DNA of 32,249 nucleotides, taken from IMG/VR virus record IMGVR_UViG_3300020442_001191, positions 1 to 32,249 of that record. One strand, written 5' to 3'. The notes beneath the pieces are model-generated. The model ran no database searches and was not told the origin of the DNA. It saw only the letters and a program-made list of their open reading frames with translations. The stretch comes from a virus. The translations under genes and the position numbers were made by a program. Position 1 is the stretch's first letter. Each line of letters begins with the position of its first letter. Shown here one piece after another: positions 11,582-29,104 of this stretch.

Positions 11582-12196
11582 TTAATTACTACTTGGTACA
11601 ACTGCTCTTATACCATCTGCAGTACCTCTGTTTCTAACTTCAATTAATAAACTTGTATTTAGTTTTCTTGTAGTTTGTGTTTGTGATTCCATACTTCTTG
11701 CTAACACTAATTGTTGCTGTCCTCTTTTTTGATAAAGCATTGAGAGTTGGTCATTTCTTGCTATTGCTCCTGCAAATAAACTAGCAAGTTCAAAAACTAC
11801 TGCTTGAGTAAAATAATCTGGAAACTCTTTTTCGTGTGGTTGAAATGTATAATGACATACAACAACATCACTTGAACTTGTATTTGTATATAATTCTTCA
11901 TTATATCTATCAAATACAATCACATTATCTGATACAGTAACAGTATGTATTAGTATTGCATCATTTGGTATTTGATATGCTGAATCCCATTTATCTAAAG
12001 GATCTGTAGAGAGTTTTGTTAATTGTGCTTGTTTTGTTGCAAATCTCCATCTAGCTTTTGTAAGTAAAGAGCGTAATGTTGTTTCATATAATTGATTAGC
12101 AACTTTACTTTCTACAGTATTATCTGTAAATGAAGCGATTGTATTTGCTCCTATTAAAACTAAACCTTGATTACATATATCTATTCTACTTACCAT
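11582..12196 (-). CDS. Tail tubular protein A (adaptor), gp11-like
   Basis: 204 residues. Opening IDICNQGLVLIGANTIASFT followed by YETTLRSLLTKARWRFATKQ is the characteristic adaptor pattern: a helical N-terminus and the RSLL...RWRFA motif that packs against the portal. The family forms the twelve-fold ring joining portal to nozzle. It lies just after the decoration protein and three bases before the nozzle gene, as expected. Confidence 0.9.
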   Translation of the reverse strand: MVSRIDICNQGLVLIGANTIASFTDNTVESKVANQLYETTLRSLLTKARWRFATKQAQLTKLSTDPLDKWDSAYQIPNDAILIHTVTVSDNVIVFDRYNEELYTNTSSSDVVVCHYTFQPHEKEFPDYFTQAVVFELASLFAGAIARNDQLSMLYQKRGQQQLVLARSMESQTQTTRKLNTSLLIEVRNRGTADGIRAVVPSSN

Positions 12197-12208
12197 AATT
12201 TAAATATC

Positions 12209-12226
12209 GGGGGAGTTGCCTCCCCC
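12209..12226 (-). terminator. GC-rich hairpin between capsid/decoration and tail genes
   Basis: A perfect 7-bp stem GGGGGAG / CTCCCCC with a four-base loop lies in the 36-base gap after the decoration gene. The following minus-strand bases (GATATTTAAATT) are AT-rich but not a run of T, so termination would be partial. A leaky terminator or mRNA 3'-end stabiliser after the highly expressed capsid genes is a common phage arrangement; T7 has its main terminator after gene 10. Confidence 0.6.
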
Positions 12227-12232
12227 AATACC

Positions 12233-12481
12233 CTATGTACCATTAATTGTTGTTACAGTAGCGGCCGCTGTTGCACTTGATACAACAAGGACATCTACTG
12301 TTCTTGTACCACCCGTTGACCCAACAGTAATGACAACATCATTCTGTTTAAGCTGATTGGTAGCACTATTGAAATAACCTGATCCTGCAATGGTAGCAAC
12401 AGCATCAGCAGAGTTGTAGAGATAAACATTTTGATCTCCACCACCTGCAATCTTTTTTAAGTTTGCTTGAGTAAAAGCCAT
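12233..12481 (-). CDS. Probable capsid decoration protein
   Basis: 82 residues, small, Gly/Thr/Val-rich and apparently all beta (YFNSATNQLKQNDVVITVGS, VDVLVVSSATAAATVTT). It follows the major capsid gene by ten bases and precedes the hairpin that closes the capsid unit. Small beta proteins with this YFN...L..GDVI type pattern often lie next to marine podovirus capsid genes and are taken as head-decoration proteins. Function is inferred from size, composition and position. Confidence 0.6.
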   Translation of the reverse strand: MAFTQANLKKIAGGGDQNVYLYNSADAVATIAGSGYFNSATNQLKQNDVVITVGSTGGTRTVDVLVVSSATAAATVTTINGT

Positions 12482-21780: not shown

Positions 21781-21815
21781 AATCTTCATATATCAAGTAC
21801 CGACAAAAAAGTCAA
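21780..21815 (-). promoter_or_regulatory. Sigma70-like promoter for terS, possibly leaderless
   Basis: On the minus strand TTGACT (21,815-21,810) is followed after exactly 17 bases by TATATG (21,792-21,787). Five of six bases match the -35 and four of six the -10 consensus. The expected start site, seven bases past the -10, falls on the A of ATG 21780, so the transcript might have no leader. No phage RNA polymerase gene is seen, so host sigma70 recognition is plausible. Confidence 0.5.
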
Positions 21816-21951
21816 CATACTCAAAAATACACTTTATAATTTACGGCGTTCGGCCGCCTTATCCACCGACTTTATGTCTGGAAGCCTTTTTCTTCAAAAG
21901 CTCCAGACCTCCCCATAAGCCTTTAAAAGGAATAAATACATATTGATTAAC
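21816..21951. other. Non-coding part of the divergent region next to terS
   Basis: No gene supported. It contains a CGGC/GCCG hairpin near 21,844-21,856 and an imperfect stem-loop at 21,876-21,908 (GTCTGG-A-AGC with GCT-CCAGAC), with no T-run on either strand. With the adjacent inverted repeat it completes a 470-base intergenic region between the two transcription units. Confidence 0.5.
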
Positions 21952-22208
21952 GGTATTTACCTGAGGGGGTCGGCTTAATTTTATCATATGTTAGAAAAAG
22001 TAAAGGTGATTTCGGTGGGGCTTGTTTGTGTGGGCTAGTTCTGTGCCTGCCCCACTTTTTGTTGTGCTTCGCATATCAACAATTATTTTCCCCTGACACC
22101 CCCCCCAAGTAGGTTGGGGGTGTCATTCCTCGCGGTGACAAAATAATTGTTGACCTTTACTTTTTCTAACCTGTGAGGTGGGTAAGCCGACCCCCTCAGG
22201 GAAATACC
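21952..22208. repeat. Nested inverted repeat between the divergent gene blocks
   Basis: Four nested arm pairs. A: 21,952-21,977 with 22,183-22,208, 25 of 26 bases complementary (core TAAGCCGACCCCCTCAGG). B: 21,990-22,007 with 22,153-22,170, 18 of 18 (ACCTTTACTTTTTCTAAC). C: 22,076-22,089 with 22,140-22,153, 14 of 14. D: 22,094-22,108 with 22,114-22,125, an inner hairpin with a C bulge. Arms B and C are adjacent on the right but 68 bases apart on the left. Both operons thus begin with the same about 56-base outward-reading sequence. Candidate replication origin or paired divergent control region. Confidence 0.8.
22015..22060 (+). terminator. Terminator-like stem-loop inside the inverted repeat
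   Basis: GTGGGGC (22,015-22,021) pairs with GCCCCAC (22,049-22,055), directly followed by five T on the plus strand. The loop is long (27 bases), so it is a weak call. It lies entirely in the 68-base segment that breaks the symmetry of the repeat and could end a short plus-strand RNA or block read-through into the early genes. Confidence 0.4.
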
Positions 22209-22256
22209 TACGAGGGAAGAGGTGAAGATGACTTGATGTCGTAGGAATAAAAAATG
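22207..22256 (+). promoter_or_regulatory. RBS-masking hairpin with a two-codon minigene in its loop
   Basis: CCTACGA (22,207-22,213) is complementary to TCGTAGG (22,239-22,245), and the second arm includes the TAGGA ribosome site of the first early gene (ATG 22254). The 25-base loop contains its own good ribosome site (AGAGGTG) and ATG ACT TGA at 22,228-22,236, a Met-Thr reading frame. Folding would hide the gene's ribosome site while exposing that of the minigene. The regulatory effect is inferred. Confidence 0.45.
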
Positions 22257-22745
22257 AAAAAACAATTATTTAAATATGAAAATATAGTTTACACACAAGA
22301 AGAGTTTGAACAAACTTTAAAAGTTGTTAAACCTTTATGTGATTTACTTTTTGAACTTACGCCATCTCTTAAAACTCAGAATTGGAGTACATCTCATCAA
22401 GCGTGTGCAAGTTTAGGAAACATAGCTTTGTACAGTTTGAGAAACTCCAATAAAAAAGTTTTATATTGGGAAACTGTTAAGAAAAAATCTGACCCTTCAG
22501 TTAAAAAAGACGAAAAGGGTGAGAACGATTACACAGTTGCGAATAGGAATTATAAATATAATTCTGCAAATTCTCAAGATTTTACGAAACTTGACCAACT
22601 ACTTACACATTGTGTAGAAAGTTGCATTGAGAATTTACATGTTCGCAAGGAAAAGAAGTCTGAAGATATGACACCCGAGCAAAGACTTGCAGAGGAAAAA
22701 CAACTTGAGGCTGAAAATAAAAAACTAATTAATTTTAAAATATAA
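22254..22745 (+). CDS. First early gene, hypothetical
   Basis: 163 residues, no family recognised. The N-terminal half is mixed (YTQEEFEQTLKVVKPLCDLL, SLGNIALYSLRN), the middle is Lys/Asn-rich and the end a charged helix (TPEQRLAEEKQLEAENKKL). It is the leftmost plus-strand gene, has its own leader hairpin and is closed by a strong terminator, so it forms a separately expressed unit. Such first-expressed phage genes often act on the host (inference from position only). Confidence 0.7.
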   Translation: MKKQLFKYENIVYTQEEFEQTLKVVKPLCDLLFELTPSLKTQNWSTSHQACASLGNIALYSLRNSNKKVLYWETVKKKSDPSVKKDEKGENDYTVANRNYKYNSANSQDFTKLDQLLTHCVESCIENLHVRKEKKSEDMTPEQRLAEEKQLEAENKKLINFKI

Positions 22746-22778
22746 ACACTTAACAAAATCGGCATCAAGTCAGCGAAG

Positions 22779-22810
22779 AAAGGGAATTGGAAACAATTCC
22801 CTTTTTTTTT
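22779..22810 (+). terminator. Rho-independent terminator after the first early gene
   Basis: AAAGGGAATTG (22,779-22,789) pairs perfectly with the bases from 22,794 (CAATTCCCTTT), with a GAAA tetraloop, and the stem runs into nine T. This is the clearest terminator in the window. It isolates the first early gene from the others and implies a second promoter downstream, or antitermination. Confidence 0.88.
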
Positions 22811-22889
22811 GTCTAAAAAAAAAATTTTTTTCGCTCCCTTCGGTCGCTCTACTTTGGTCTATTTATTAACTTTAAAAAGGAGTTGTACA

Positions 22890-23090
22890 ATGAAATTTCG
22901 TTGGCATTTTTTACTTTTTTCTATTTTCGTATATTCTTGTTGTAATATTGAAAATGATATTAACATTGTTGTAAATGGTTGGGAGGTGTCTGGTTGGACA
23001 TTTGTTTCGTCATTTATGAACTTTATATTCTTCGTTACTTATATTACAATTTATGGAATTGAATATATAAAAAGGATTTCGGAGAAATAG
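22890..23090 (+). CDS. Small membrane protein (two hydrophobic segments)
   Basis: 66 residues from ATG 22890, which follows AAAAAGGAG at the correct distance; longer upstream frames start in low-complexity sequence and are rejected. It starts MKFRWHFLLFSIFVYSCCNI, which could be a membrane helix or a lipoprotein-like signal. A second hydrophobic segment follows (SSFMNFIFFVTYITIYGIEY). No family known. A GC-rich hairpin begins four bases after the stop. Confidence 0.6.
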   Translation: MKFRWHFLLFSIFVYSCCNIENDINIVVNGWEVSGWTFVSSFMNFIFFVTYITIYGIEYIKRISEK

Positions 23091-23093
23091 AAA

Positions 23094-23130
23094 GCTCCCC
23101 CCTCCGCCCCTTCGGGGCTACGGGGGGAGC
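23094..23130 (+). terminator. Strong GC-rich hairpin after the small membrane gene
   Basis: GCTCCCCCC pairs with GGGGGGAGC over nine bases, enclosing a second hairpin GCCCC-TTC-GGGGC. This is exceptionally GC-rich in an AT-rich genome. There is no following T-run, so it is not a standard intrinsic terminator; it may protect an mRNA 3' end or begin the stem-loop array that follows. Confidence 0.55.
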
Positions 23131-23580
23131 CACTATCATAGCACTATGCACGGCGATTGCACTCGTAATGCAGGACTCACAATTTCCTTCCCCATATAAG
23201 TCCTGCACTATGATTGCAAAGGCCTTGCAATCTAGTGAATATCACATCTGTATGTTGTAGCTCAATAGACAGACCTCTGATATTCACACTATAGGTGAGA
23301 TGGACTATGGGTAAAGCCTTGCAAGTTGCCATCAATACCCAAAGGTTTTGTAGCTTGTACCCTGTAGGCGGACTGTGATACTTACAGTTGAACGGGTTAG
23401 TTATGCCGCTGGTGACAAAAACAAGTTATAGGTTTTTGGAATTTGTACCTACTGAACGCTGTAAAGCTACCACCTAAAAAGTGGGGAACAAACAAAAACA
23501 TTTAAACTGTAGCTACATCTTCAGTAAGTTGTACCAAGATGTAGCTATAGCTATATTAGACTTTAAACAAAGGAGTAATT
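23131..23580 (+). ncRNA. Array of stem-loops; possible structured RNA or origin
   Basis: No protein-coding frame is credible over about 450 bases, yet inverted repeats follow each other: TGCAGGACT/AGTCCTGCA (23,169-23,207), GATTGCAA-AGGCC-TTGCAATC (23,212-23,232), GTGAATATCA/TGATATTCAC (23,235-23,287), TGGGTA/TACCCA (23,308-23,341), ACTGT/ACAGT (23,372-23,388), and TAGCTACATCTT/AAGATGTAGCTA (23,510-23,547). GTTTTGT/ACAAAAC (about 23,345-23,421) encloses the fifth. GCACTATG and GATTGCA recur. The last stem ends about 30 bases before the next ribosome site. Long structured RNA, long leader, or origin are all possible. Confidence 0.5.
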
Positions 23581-23901
23581 ATGTCTAAGTATTTGAAAGC
23601 AGATGAAGAAAAGCATCATTATGAAGCTGAGATTCATCAAAAAACTATGCACGAGATTAATCGTGTAAATACATTCAGAACAATGTCAAACGAGTATCAA
23701 GACATCATACAAAGTAAATATGCTGATGATCTTATATCTCACAGTAAATTTGGTTTGGCTACACATTACTATGGTGTAATGGAACATCTTACAAATCTAT
23801 CGTTACTAGAAATAGAAAACAAATTGTATGCACCTGAGTATGAAGAGCGTATGAAAGAGATTGCACACGCTGTAGATGAACTTGAAAAGATTGCAAAATG
23901 A
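23581..23901 (+). CDS. Hypothetical helical protein
   Basis: 106 residues, largely helical and charged with many His and Glu (DEEKHHYEAEIHQKTMHEIN, then LEIENKLYAPEYEERMKEIA). No family recognised. ATG 23581 has AAAGGAG eight bases upstream and is the first gene after the stem-loop array. Its TGA overlaps the next ATG as ATGA, so it heads a short coupled group of three genes. Confidence 0.7.
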   Translation: MSKYLKADEEKHHYEAEIHQKTMHEINRVNTFRTMSNEYQDIIQSKYADDLISHSKFGLATHYYGVMEHLTNLSLLEIENKLYAPEYEERMKEIAHAVDELEKIAK

Positions 23902-25479: not shown

Positions 25480-25486
25480 GAATCAT

Positions 25487-25608
25487 ATGCAAGGTTTTTT
25501 TTCTATATTTATTTAGCCTTGCATTGATTAGGTTTAGCCGTACCTAGTTATGAGCAAACGGTGTCCTTTCAGGGCACTAGGATTCCCATAAAACTTGTTC
25601 TAGTGCCC
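25487..25608 (+). ncRNA. Second intergenic stem-loop cluster
   Basis: Three inverted repeats fill the 161-base gap: ATGCAAGG/CCTTGCAT (25,487-25,524) around a T-rich loop, TAGGT/ACCTA (25,529-25,546), and GGGCACTAG/CTAGTGCCC (25,572-25,608). CCTTGCA also occurs in the larger array near 23,224 and 23,317. No T-run follows the stems, so they are not ordinary terminators. Confidence 0.45.
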
Positions 25609-25640
25609 ATTATTAATCCATTAAAACAAAGGAGTATATT

Positions 25641-27708: not shown

Positions 27709-28299
27709 ATGATGGCTAATATAGAACCAAGGGTAAAGAAGATACTTGCAGAGTATGATCTTAAACCCGAACACGCTTTGTGGGAACTCAAACGAGGTGG
27801 CAAAGCAACACTAATTATGTTGCATAAATATTGCGAACTTGTTGGAGCTAAAGCAGGTATTGTTATTGATGACATACTTGAGGTAGAAACTAATTCTGCA
27901 CAAGGTATAGCAGTAGTAAAATGCTATGCTCACAATGACAAAATGAAAGTCATTACCTACGGAGAAGCTAGTCCTAAAAATAGTAAGGTTGCTTATCCAT
28001 ATGCAATGGCTGAAAAGAGAGCAGTAGATAGAGCCATTCTCAAACTTGTTGGATTGCACGGCTTTGTGTATTCAGAAGATGAGTTTGATACTACAGACCA
28101 AAAGATTGGATCTGCAGATGATGACGCTATCAAAACATTTCTTACTAATATTGAAGGTAGCAAAACAATAAAACAAGCTACAGGATATTATGAAATGGCT
28201 AAAGTAAACATAGCTAAAGCCAAGAAGTCCAATCCGGGATTGTACCAAATGGCAGTAGCTAAATATGAATCTAAGCGAAAGGAACTACAAAGTGTATAA
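27709..28299 (+). CDS. Probable single-strand annealing protein (ERF/Rad52-like)
   Basis: 196 residues. The conserved block YGEASPKNSKVAYPYAMAEK, RAVDRAILKLVGLHGFVYSE DE resembles the core of ERF/Sak-type phage annealing proteins, where a Gly/Ala/Tyr segment precedes KR..DR.il...G. Lying between a YqaJ exonuclease and SSB strengthens the call; the exact superfamily is uncertain. It begins MM behind AAAGGAGG, so ATG 27712 is equally possible. Its end overlaps the SSB start by eight bases. Confidence 0.6.
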   Translation: MMANIEPRVKKILAEYDLKPEHALWELKRGGKATLIMLHKYCELVGAKAGIVIDDILEVETNSAQGIAVVKCYAHNDKMKVITYGEASPKNSKVAYPYAMAEKRAVDRAILKLVGLHGFVYSEDEFDTTDQKIGSADDDAIKTFLTNIEGSKTIKQATGYYEMAKVNIAKAKKSNPGLYQMAVAKYESKRKELQSV

Positions 28300-28705: not shown

Positions 28706-28920
28706 TGTTTAAAGTATGGATCGTAACCTTGTGGATTGCATATGACGGACAACTGTATGTTAAGTATGCTCTGCCATTGCAACACAAGTGCGATATATTT
28801 ACTTGGTGGAGTGTAAAGGAACAGTACCTACACACTCCACTAGACATTGTTGCAATGAAATGTACTAGAGTTAAAGACTTTAGAATAGATAAAAGGATAT
28901 TTAATTATGACAAAAAATGA
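28705..28920 (+). CDS. 71-residue hypothetical protein
   Basis: MFKVWIVTLWIAYDGQLYVK ... IFTWWSVKEQYLHTPLDIVA; no family. ATG shares one base with the SSB stop (TAATG) and the end overlaps the LexA-like gene by 14 bases, so it is part of the operon. The start is mildly hydrophobic but not a clear membrane helix. Confidence 0.6.
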   Translation: MFKVWIVTLWIAYDGQLYVKYALPLQHKCDIFTWWSVKEQYLHTPLDIVAMKCTRVKDFRIDKRIFNYDKK

Positions 28921-29104
28921 AGCACGAGTATTTAAATTTGTCAGCGATTTTCTTATGATGTATGGATATAGTCCTTCATATAAAGAAATTGCAGAACAAC
29001 TAACCTTTGCCTCACCTTCACAAGCACACAAGATTTGTATGCAGTTGGTAAAGAAAGAAAAATTAATTAAGGGAGTTGGTGCCAGAAACTTGGAGGTAAG
29101 ATGA
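28907..29104 (+). CDS. Stand-alone LexA-type DNA-binding domain
   Basis: 65 residues covering only the LexA winged-helix: FKFVSDFLMMYGYSPSYKEI, AEQLTFASPSQAHKICMQLV, KKEKLI matches F....G.sPs..EIa..L...S.......L..L..k..i. The autocleavage peptidase domain is absent, so the protein cannot be inactivated by RecA in the usual way. Likely a transcription regulator of phage or host SOS-type sites (inference). Confidence 0.75.
   Translation: MTKNEARVFKFVSDFLMMYGYSPSYKEIAEQLTFASPSQAHKICMQLVKKEKLIKGVGARNLEVR

Follow-up and report, generated by a model that had tools for sequence, protein, structure and literature searches.

What occupies the roughly 450 bases that separate two early genes in this phage? 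The window (the whole stretch of DNA that was analysed) is a single virus sequence of 32,249 bases, with the structural genes (terminase, head-tail adaptor, tail and internal virion protein) on the - strand on its left side and the early genes on the + strand on its right side. Among isolates, EXVC031P Hodr, a Pelagibacter phage, comes closest (81% identity in the terminase and 77% in the head-tail adaptor), so a host of the SAR11 type seems likely; phages that infect SAR11 belong to the most abundant in the ocean. A sequence-only reading had described the stretch as a non-coding series of stem-loops and offered three candidates: a large structured phage RNA, a long leader of the gene at 23581, or a hairpin-rich origin. 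It had also set the stretch apart from a genome in which genes otherwise overlap, and this does not hold: gaps between genes are found at 21790-22253, 22746-22890 and 25480-25640 as well, and two of these three are structured too.

The array, 23094-23550, sits between a stop at 23090 and an ATG at 23581, and the interval from that stop to that ATG contains no open reading frame of at least 60 aa, in line with the claim that it is non-coding. The gap is near certain to be a real folded element, and that element is most likely RNA. The region 23090-23560 folds at -170 kcal/mol compared with -123.6 +/- 6.6 for shuffles (z -7.0, 0/100), and in a scan of the record in non-overlapping 150-nt windows, 23101-23250 had the best + strand value (z -5.6) of the whole 32 kb. 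Inverted repeats turned out to be more numerous than first described: a search returned 15 pairs within 23090-23580, among them 23147-23177/23199-23229, 23094-23110/23114-23130, 23507-23521/23536-23550, 23235-23244/23278-23287 and 23212-23219/23225-23232. The GC-rich double hairpin reported at the start of the array is indeed there. The claim of recurrent words stood in part: GCACTATG occurs twice, which is not unusual (25/100 shuffles hold two or more copies), and GATTGCA is enriched across the window (15 copies vs 5.6 expected, 0/100 shuffles), yet just three copies fall inside the array, two of them forming the P3 stem. The array and the gene that follows it comprise the following features (cassette boundaries beyond P2 and P3 were drawn by eye):

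23094-23130, + strand: GC-rich double hairpin, GCTCCCCCC..GCCCC/GGGGC..GGGGGGAGC (17-nt arms, 82%)
23131-23140, + strand: start motif S, CACTATCATC, CACTATCAT(C/A), in which the letters, not a pairing, are conserved
23158-23218, + strand: P2, a long hairpin with UUCCUUCCCC in its apical loop, identified by covariation and RNAalifold
23212-23232, + strand: P3, a GATTGCA/TGCAATC hairpin, identified by covariation
23235-23287, + strand: hairpin GTGAATATCA/TGATATTCAC (10/10 bp), in the place that the T-loop minihelix has in most relatives
23299-23340, + strand: PK0, a putative H-type pseudoknot (GATGG/CCATC with GGGTA/TACCC) read from the sequence and identical in relative L008
23343-23431, + strand: PK1, an H-type pseudoknot (AGGT/ACC(U) with TTGTAGCTTGT/ACAAGTTATAG) with a long loop insert, identified by stem 2 pairing in relatives
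23430-23499, + strand: PK2, an H-type pseudoknot (AGGT/ACCT with TTTTTG-gaa-TTTGT/ACAAA-CAAAAAC), identified by a shared 5' motif, its 3' partner read by eye (the script chose a different one)
23507-23550, + strand: P6, hairpin CTGTAGCTACATCTT/AAGATGTAGCTATAG (15-nt arms, 93%), with G-U changes in relatives
23551-23580, + strand: A+U-rich spacer with the Shine-Dalgarno (SD) sequence AAAGGAG, predicted to be unpaired (probability 0.94)
23581-23901, + strand: downstream early gene encoding a predicted three-helix protein of 106 aa

The protein encoded at 23581 has a confident three-helix model, for which a PDB search gave no significant match.

Two protein-anchored scans of viral contigs yielded 48 loci of related phages (the set may include near-duplicates from the same surveys, and identical rows were merged for counts). 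Wherever the contigs of close relatives span this region, a non-coding array occupies it. In 21 marine relatives an array of folded cassettes lies at the same place, directly upstream of the gene corresponding to 23581. The arrays start with CACTATCATC, continue with P2 and P3, and may then hold a T-loop minihelix (CCAAGACTAAATAGGTTTGANTCCTATGCTTGG), a cassette F, up to two pseudoknots and P6 before the ribosome-binding site. This order is constant in all 21, composition varies (about 16 distinct layouts, 125-475 nt), and about 30 nt always remain between the last strong structure and the AUG. Folding was stronger than in shuffles in 15/15 leader arrays tested (z -3 to -9). The S motif is found in every array with a sequenced 5' end; the idea that it is antisense to another phage site was dropped, there being no exact complement elsewhere in the window. 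The GC-rich double hairpin occurs for the most part in those relatives in which the upstream small gene is shared as well, and in L008 it carries a compensated T-A to A-T change (GCACCCCCC/GGGGGGTGC). The window's array has no T-loop unit, and another hairpin and a putative pseudoknot stand there instead; the same is true of L008, in which that hairpin reads GTGAGTATCA/TGGTACTCAC (one compensated pair, one G-U). The pseudoknot motif is absent from leader 1 of L005, L012, L013 and L023, so no cassette past S-P2-P3 is essential, and the arrays of L013 and L023 are 125 nt long. All of the arrays adjoin the SD of one gene family, in both of its alleles, and each array stops at that gene's ribosome-binding site (in L012, which has a 46-aa open reading frame between the array and the usual gene, at that of the insert); this supports the candidate of a leader of the gene at 23581. 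Beyond these relatives, Hodr has a comparable gap of about 100 nt with short hairpins only (read by eye), blastn detected no array in L028, L030 and a group at 34-40% identity (otherwise checked for open reading frames only), and blastn against 50,697 phage records gave no match to the array.

Covariation had been proposed as the check on an RNA, and P2 is the strongest case of it. The 19 positions of P2 run as 4 bp, a Y.U mismatch, 5 bp, an A.C mismatch and 8 bp. With the arms joined by N for the count, 98.5% of cells were paired and 12 of the 17 pairs had changes on both sides, across 12 distinct versions; these values were reached by 0/500 shuffles (aligned rows share ancestry, so this and the other shuffle counts are not probabilities), and slid controls paired 18-46%. 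RNAalifold, run on the unjoined hairpins, independently recovered the P2 helix. For P3, 94.3% of cells were paired and three pairs had double changes, with 5/500 shuffles as high. The 5' strand of P3, GRTTGCA, is the 3' strand of outer P2, and therefore the two pairings are mutually exclusive, and both are conserved; P2 and P3 may alternate in life in a switch-like manner. Stem 2 of the pseudoknot was 100% paired in eight distinct rows, mostly through one-sided G-U changes, because of which the shuffle control (56/500) is not decisive; the slid control (27-47%) is. Pairing of a UUCCUU loop with the SD is possible for many P2 loops but not all, and is not claimed. Stems are kept across marine relatives while their letters change, so neither a lack of covariation nor a loss of the stems in relatives, outcomes that had been named as refuting, was observed. 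The structured phage RNA is supported, and it is probably one and the same thing as the leader of the 23581 gene.

The mismatches tolerated within these helices bear on which strand folds. Over all helices examined, G-U outnumbers A-C by 44:1 in the + sense, a pooled ratio biased by the fact that most helices were picked by reading the + strand as RNA. P2 alone is cleaner: if its two fixed mismatch positions (one a conserved A-C) are set aside, there are 14 G-U and one A-C. Because mismatches in the + sense are G-U and almost never A-C, the + (mRNA-sense) strand is, judging from these alignments, the strand that folds, and the asymmetry would favour RNA over single-stranded DNA.

The analysis also found a second leader, which, like the pseudoknots, was absent from the sequence-only reading:

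25480-25640, + strand: second mosaic leader, with a hairpin (25487-25524), a pseudoknot (25528-25563, TTAGGTTTAGCCGTACCTAGTTATGAGCAAACGGTG), a further hairpin (25572-25608) and an A+U-rich SD region

The motif AGGTT..GTACCTA occurs at just two sites in the window, in PK2 of leader 1 and in leader 2 (0.03 expected). In the leader-2 pseudoknot 98.1% of cells are paired, with a covariation score reached by 0/500 shuffles, and a scan for it returned 27 contig stretches. Relatives swap cassettes at leader 2 as well, and the first open reading frame past it differs among them (three kinds). Leader 2 ends like leader 1: before an A+U-rich SD, in the same operon, ahead of variable small genes. L012 and L019 have no second leader at all, so such leaders are dispensable.

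With moderate confidence, we read the region as a modular untranslated leader of an early mRNA that would act in cis on processing, stability or translation. This reading is preferred because of the covariation, the arrays abutting the SD, the second leader that ends alike and the predicted accessibility of the SD (unpaired probability 0.58-1.0 over 15 arrays). It is weakened by the 46-aa insert in L012, by the dispensability of the leaders, by promoters that are not above background (48 sites vs 45.7 expected) and by the slight gain in accessibility of the ribosome-binding site, which is barely above that of shuffled leaders (0.53 vs 0.49). The cis-acting leader could work as follows. The region would belong to the early + strand transcript, either as an untranslated leader or as a segment between cistrons, and would be built of self-contained folded RNA cassettes: hairpins, the alternative P2/P3 pair and H-type pseudoknots. 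Relatives gain, lose and swap these through recombination, with their order kept and a constant distance of about 30 nt from the end of the stack to the start codon, which would leave the A+U-rich SD region open. P2, at about two helical turns, might be a landing site for a double-strand-specific factor, for example an RNA-binding protein of the phage or the RNase III of the host. The 3' cassette, whether pseudoknot or P6, might cap the border of the ribosome site, either to protect the RNA or to bind a protein. We infer transcription within the early mRNA, action in cis and a binding partner from these arrangements.

Several known systems offer parallels for such a leader. One is the T7 R1.1 RNase III signal: in both cases a podovirus-type phage has hairpins between its early genes, and R1.1 is cut in vitro by an RNase III from an alpha-proteobacterium (PMC6121014). 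P2 resembles RNase III signals in spanning about two helical turns with internal mismatches, and agrees with the largely sequence-independent hairpin of about 20 bp expected of them (17 pairs over 19 positions, letters replaced with pairing kept). In contrast to R1.1, the arrays have pseudoknots, conserved loop and start motifs and alternative pairing. In the gene 32 leader of T4, T2 and RB69 a pseudoknot lies 67 nt ahead of the AUG; the stretch after it, which covers the ribosome site, is A+U-rich, contains UUAA(A) and is unstructured, and in the T4 operator the pseudoknot nucleates protein over that A+U-rich site (PMC3014915). The same layout (an H-type pseudoknot some 60-70 nt ahead of the AUG, then an open A+U-rich SD region) is found in leader 2 of several relatives; in L002 there are 66 nt from the start of the pseudoknot core to the AUG, and ATTAATCCATTAAAACAAAGGAG comes after the core. 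The likeness has limits: in the window an extra hairpin lies between pseudoknot and SD, and it is not the Ssb gene that these leaders precede. The phage Ssb gene, at 28265 and about 4.7 kb downstream of the array, matches the bacterial family PF00436, overlaps the preceding gene and has no leader, and both leaders precede other genes.

Could the array instead be a discrete non-coding RNA that acts in trans and lies ahead of the gene by chance, a composite that would serve host or defence factors as a decoy or scaffold, with cassettes shuffled in an arms race? The large size, the multi-cassette mosaic, the tandem pseudoknots and the rapid replacement of stems with their shape kept would all suit such an RNA, as would the T-loop minihelix, which resembles the acceptor/T-arm half of a tRNA. 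Set against this, no terminator was found 3' of the array, which in each case continues into the SD; the second leader, a related one, is SD-proximal as well; and no toxin-antitoxin or defence-type partner was seen among the ten early proteins scanned, for which the only matches of that sort were generic helix-turn-helix ones. On this evidence a trans-acting RNA is unlikely. Searches for particular kinds of RNA were negative too: there was no adjacent toxin match of the type III antitoxin (ToxI-like) kind (Pfam/PADLOC, ten proteins each), and ARAGORN found no tRNA or tmRNA, and no complete cloverleaf, either in the window or in two loci that carry the T-loop minihelix. The minihelix was also considered as a host tRNA remnant, and this was rejected: a one-genome-per-species scan (84,980 species) returned two contigs, both with the array and phage genes. 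These are the marine MAG contigs L135 and L136 (labelled Euryarchaeota and Rhodobiaceae), and they are phage sequence binned into MAGs, because both carry the same array and neighbouring phage genes.

Among catalogued families, Rfam gave no credible match (gathering score over the whole window; E up to 3-5 in four regions). STAXI is present in Rfam 15, and no STAXI-type match was found in four regions at E up to 5 or 3. The GOLLD and ROOL covariance models gave no match at gathering score, a chance-level GOLLD match (10.8 bits vs 150) lying outside the array. Like the RNA proposed for the arrays, GOLLD and ROOL are large structured phage RNAs of unknown function (PMC12286853); they have one fixed fold, as opposed to an SD-proximal mosaic of small cassettes, and the window has no tRNA genes. 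In the literature library that was searched, nothing relevant turned up on pelagiphage RNAs, intergenic hairpins or the nearest isolate. A tentative and rather unlikely proposal is a new class of phage RNA: folded modules (switch-like P2/P3, T-loop minihelix, pseudoknots) would be exchanged whole between phages with order and start-codon distance fixed, and would give phages of SAR11-like hosts a modular RNA that regulates or acts as a decoy. More than 20 natural variants that differ cassette by cassette provide a comparative set for the role of each folded unit, and the exclusive P2/P3 pairing and recurring pseudoknots lead to direct testable predictions.

A structured single-stranded DNA element, which would serve as a single-strand initiation site or as an ssDNA promoter and fold once replication exposes the + strand, is less probable still, and quite unlikely. 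G-T is a comparatively well tolerated mismatch in DNA, which counts in its favour. STAXI is a tandem-repeated pseudoknot of unknown function found near Ssb and other DNA-handling genes, such as those for antirestriction proteins, topoisomerase or integrase, and its authors weighed ssDNA and favoured RNA (Weinberg et al. 2010, PMC2864571). The arrays recall it in their tandem AGGT..GTACC pseudoknots (two in the window, the second partner read by eye, and several relatives too) and perhaps in their setting, an operon that holds the Ssb gene and a DUF932 gene (24364, 0.8 kb downstream of the array). They differ in that the pseudoknots are mixed with P2, P3 and P6 hairpins directly before an SD and that Ssb is not the adjacent gene. 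The arrays belong neither to STAXI nor to the gene 32 operators: Rfam gave no match, and the gene behind each leader is not Ssb. The high share of G-U (11/80 cells in pseudoknot stem 2, 7/70 in P3) and the position always immediately before the SD argue against ssDNA, as does the preference of the STAXI authors.

That the array is chiefly a recombination joint, its conserved hairpin words permitting gene and allele swaps and its fold having no regulatory role, is improbable. Upstream genes and cassette sets vary among relatives, one and the same upstream block is found with either allele of the downstream gene, and the small open reading frames after the second leader differ, all of which would fit; a joint as sole cause needs shared letters, whereas the letters of P2 are replaced with pairing kept. 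The hairpin-rich origin, suggested by the inverted repeats and the GC-rich hairpin, is very improbable and found no support, given the strand-specific wobble bias (the + strand would fold single-stranded), a core that shrinks to 125 nt in L013 and L023, and a better origin candidate in the much larger inverted repeat of a divergent gap at 21952-22208.

The repeat at 21952-22208 is imperfect and very long (56-nt arms, 84%), contains an inner perfect 14-bp repeat and fills the divergent gap ahead of the + strand gene at 22254, and is a candidate origin or promoter-control element. Farther along, a terminator-like hairpin (AGGGAATTGGAAACAATTCCCT) with a T run was seen by eye at 22781-22815, 3' of the gene ending at 22745, and is unlisted by the pattern scan. 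The second-best + strand folding value of the record (z -4.9) is at 28801-28950, within predicted genes, and the best - strand value (z -6.4) is at 12151-12300, around the gap between the genes 11582-12196 and 12233-12481. In Hodr (L121), a long inverted repeat at 12197-12372 pairs TTTTCCTCCTTTGG with the SD CCAAAGGAGGATAA of the first rightward gene, and is possibly an SD-sequestering leader.
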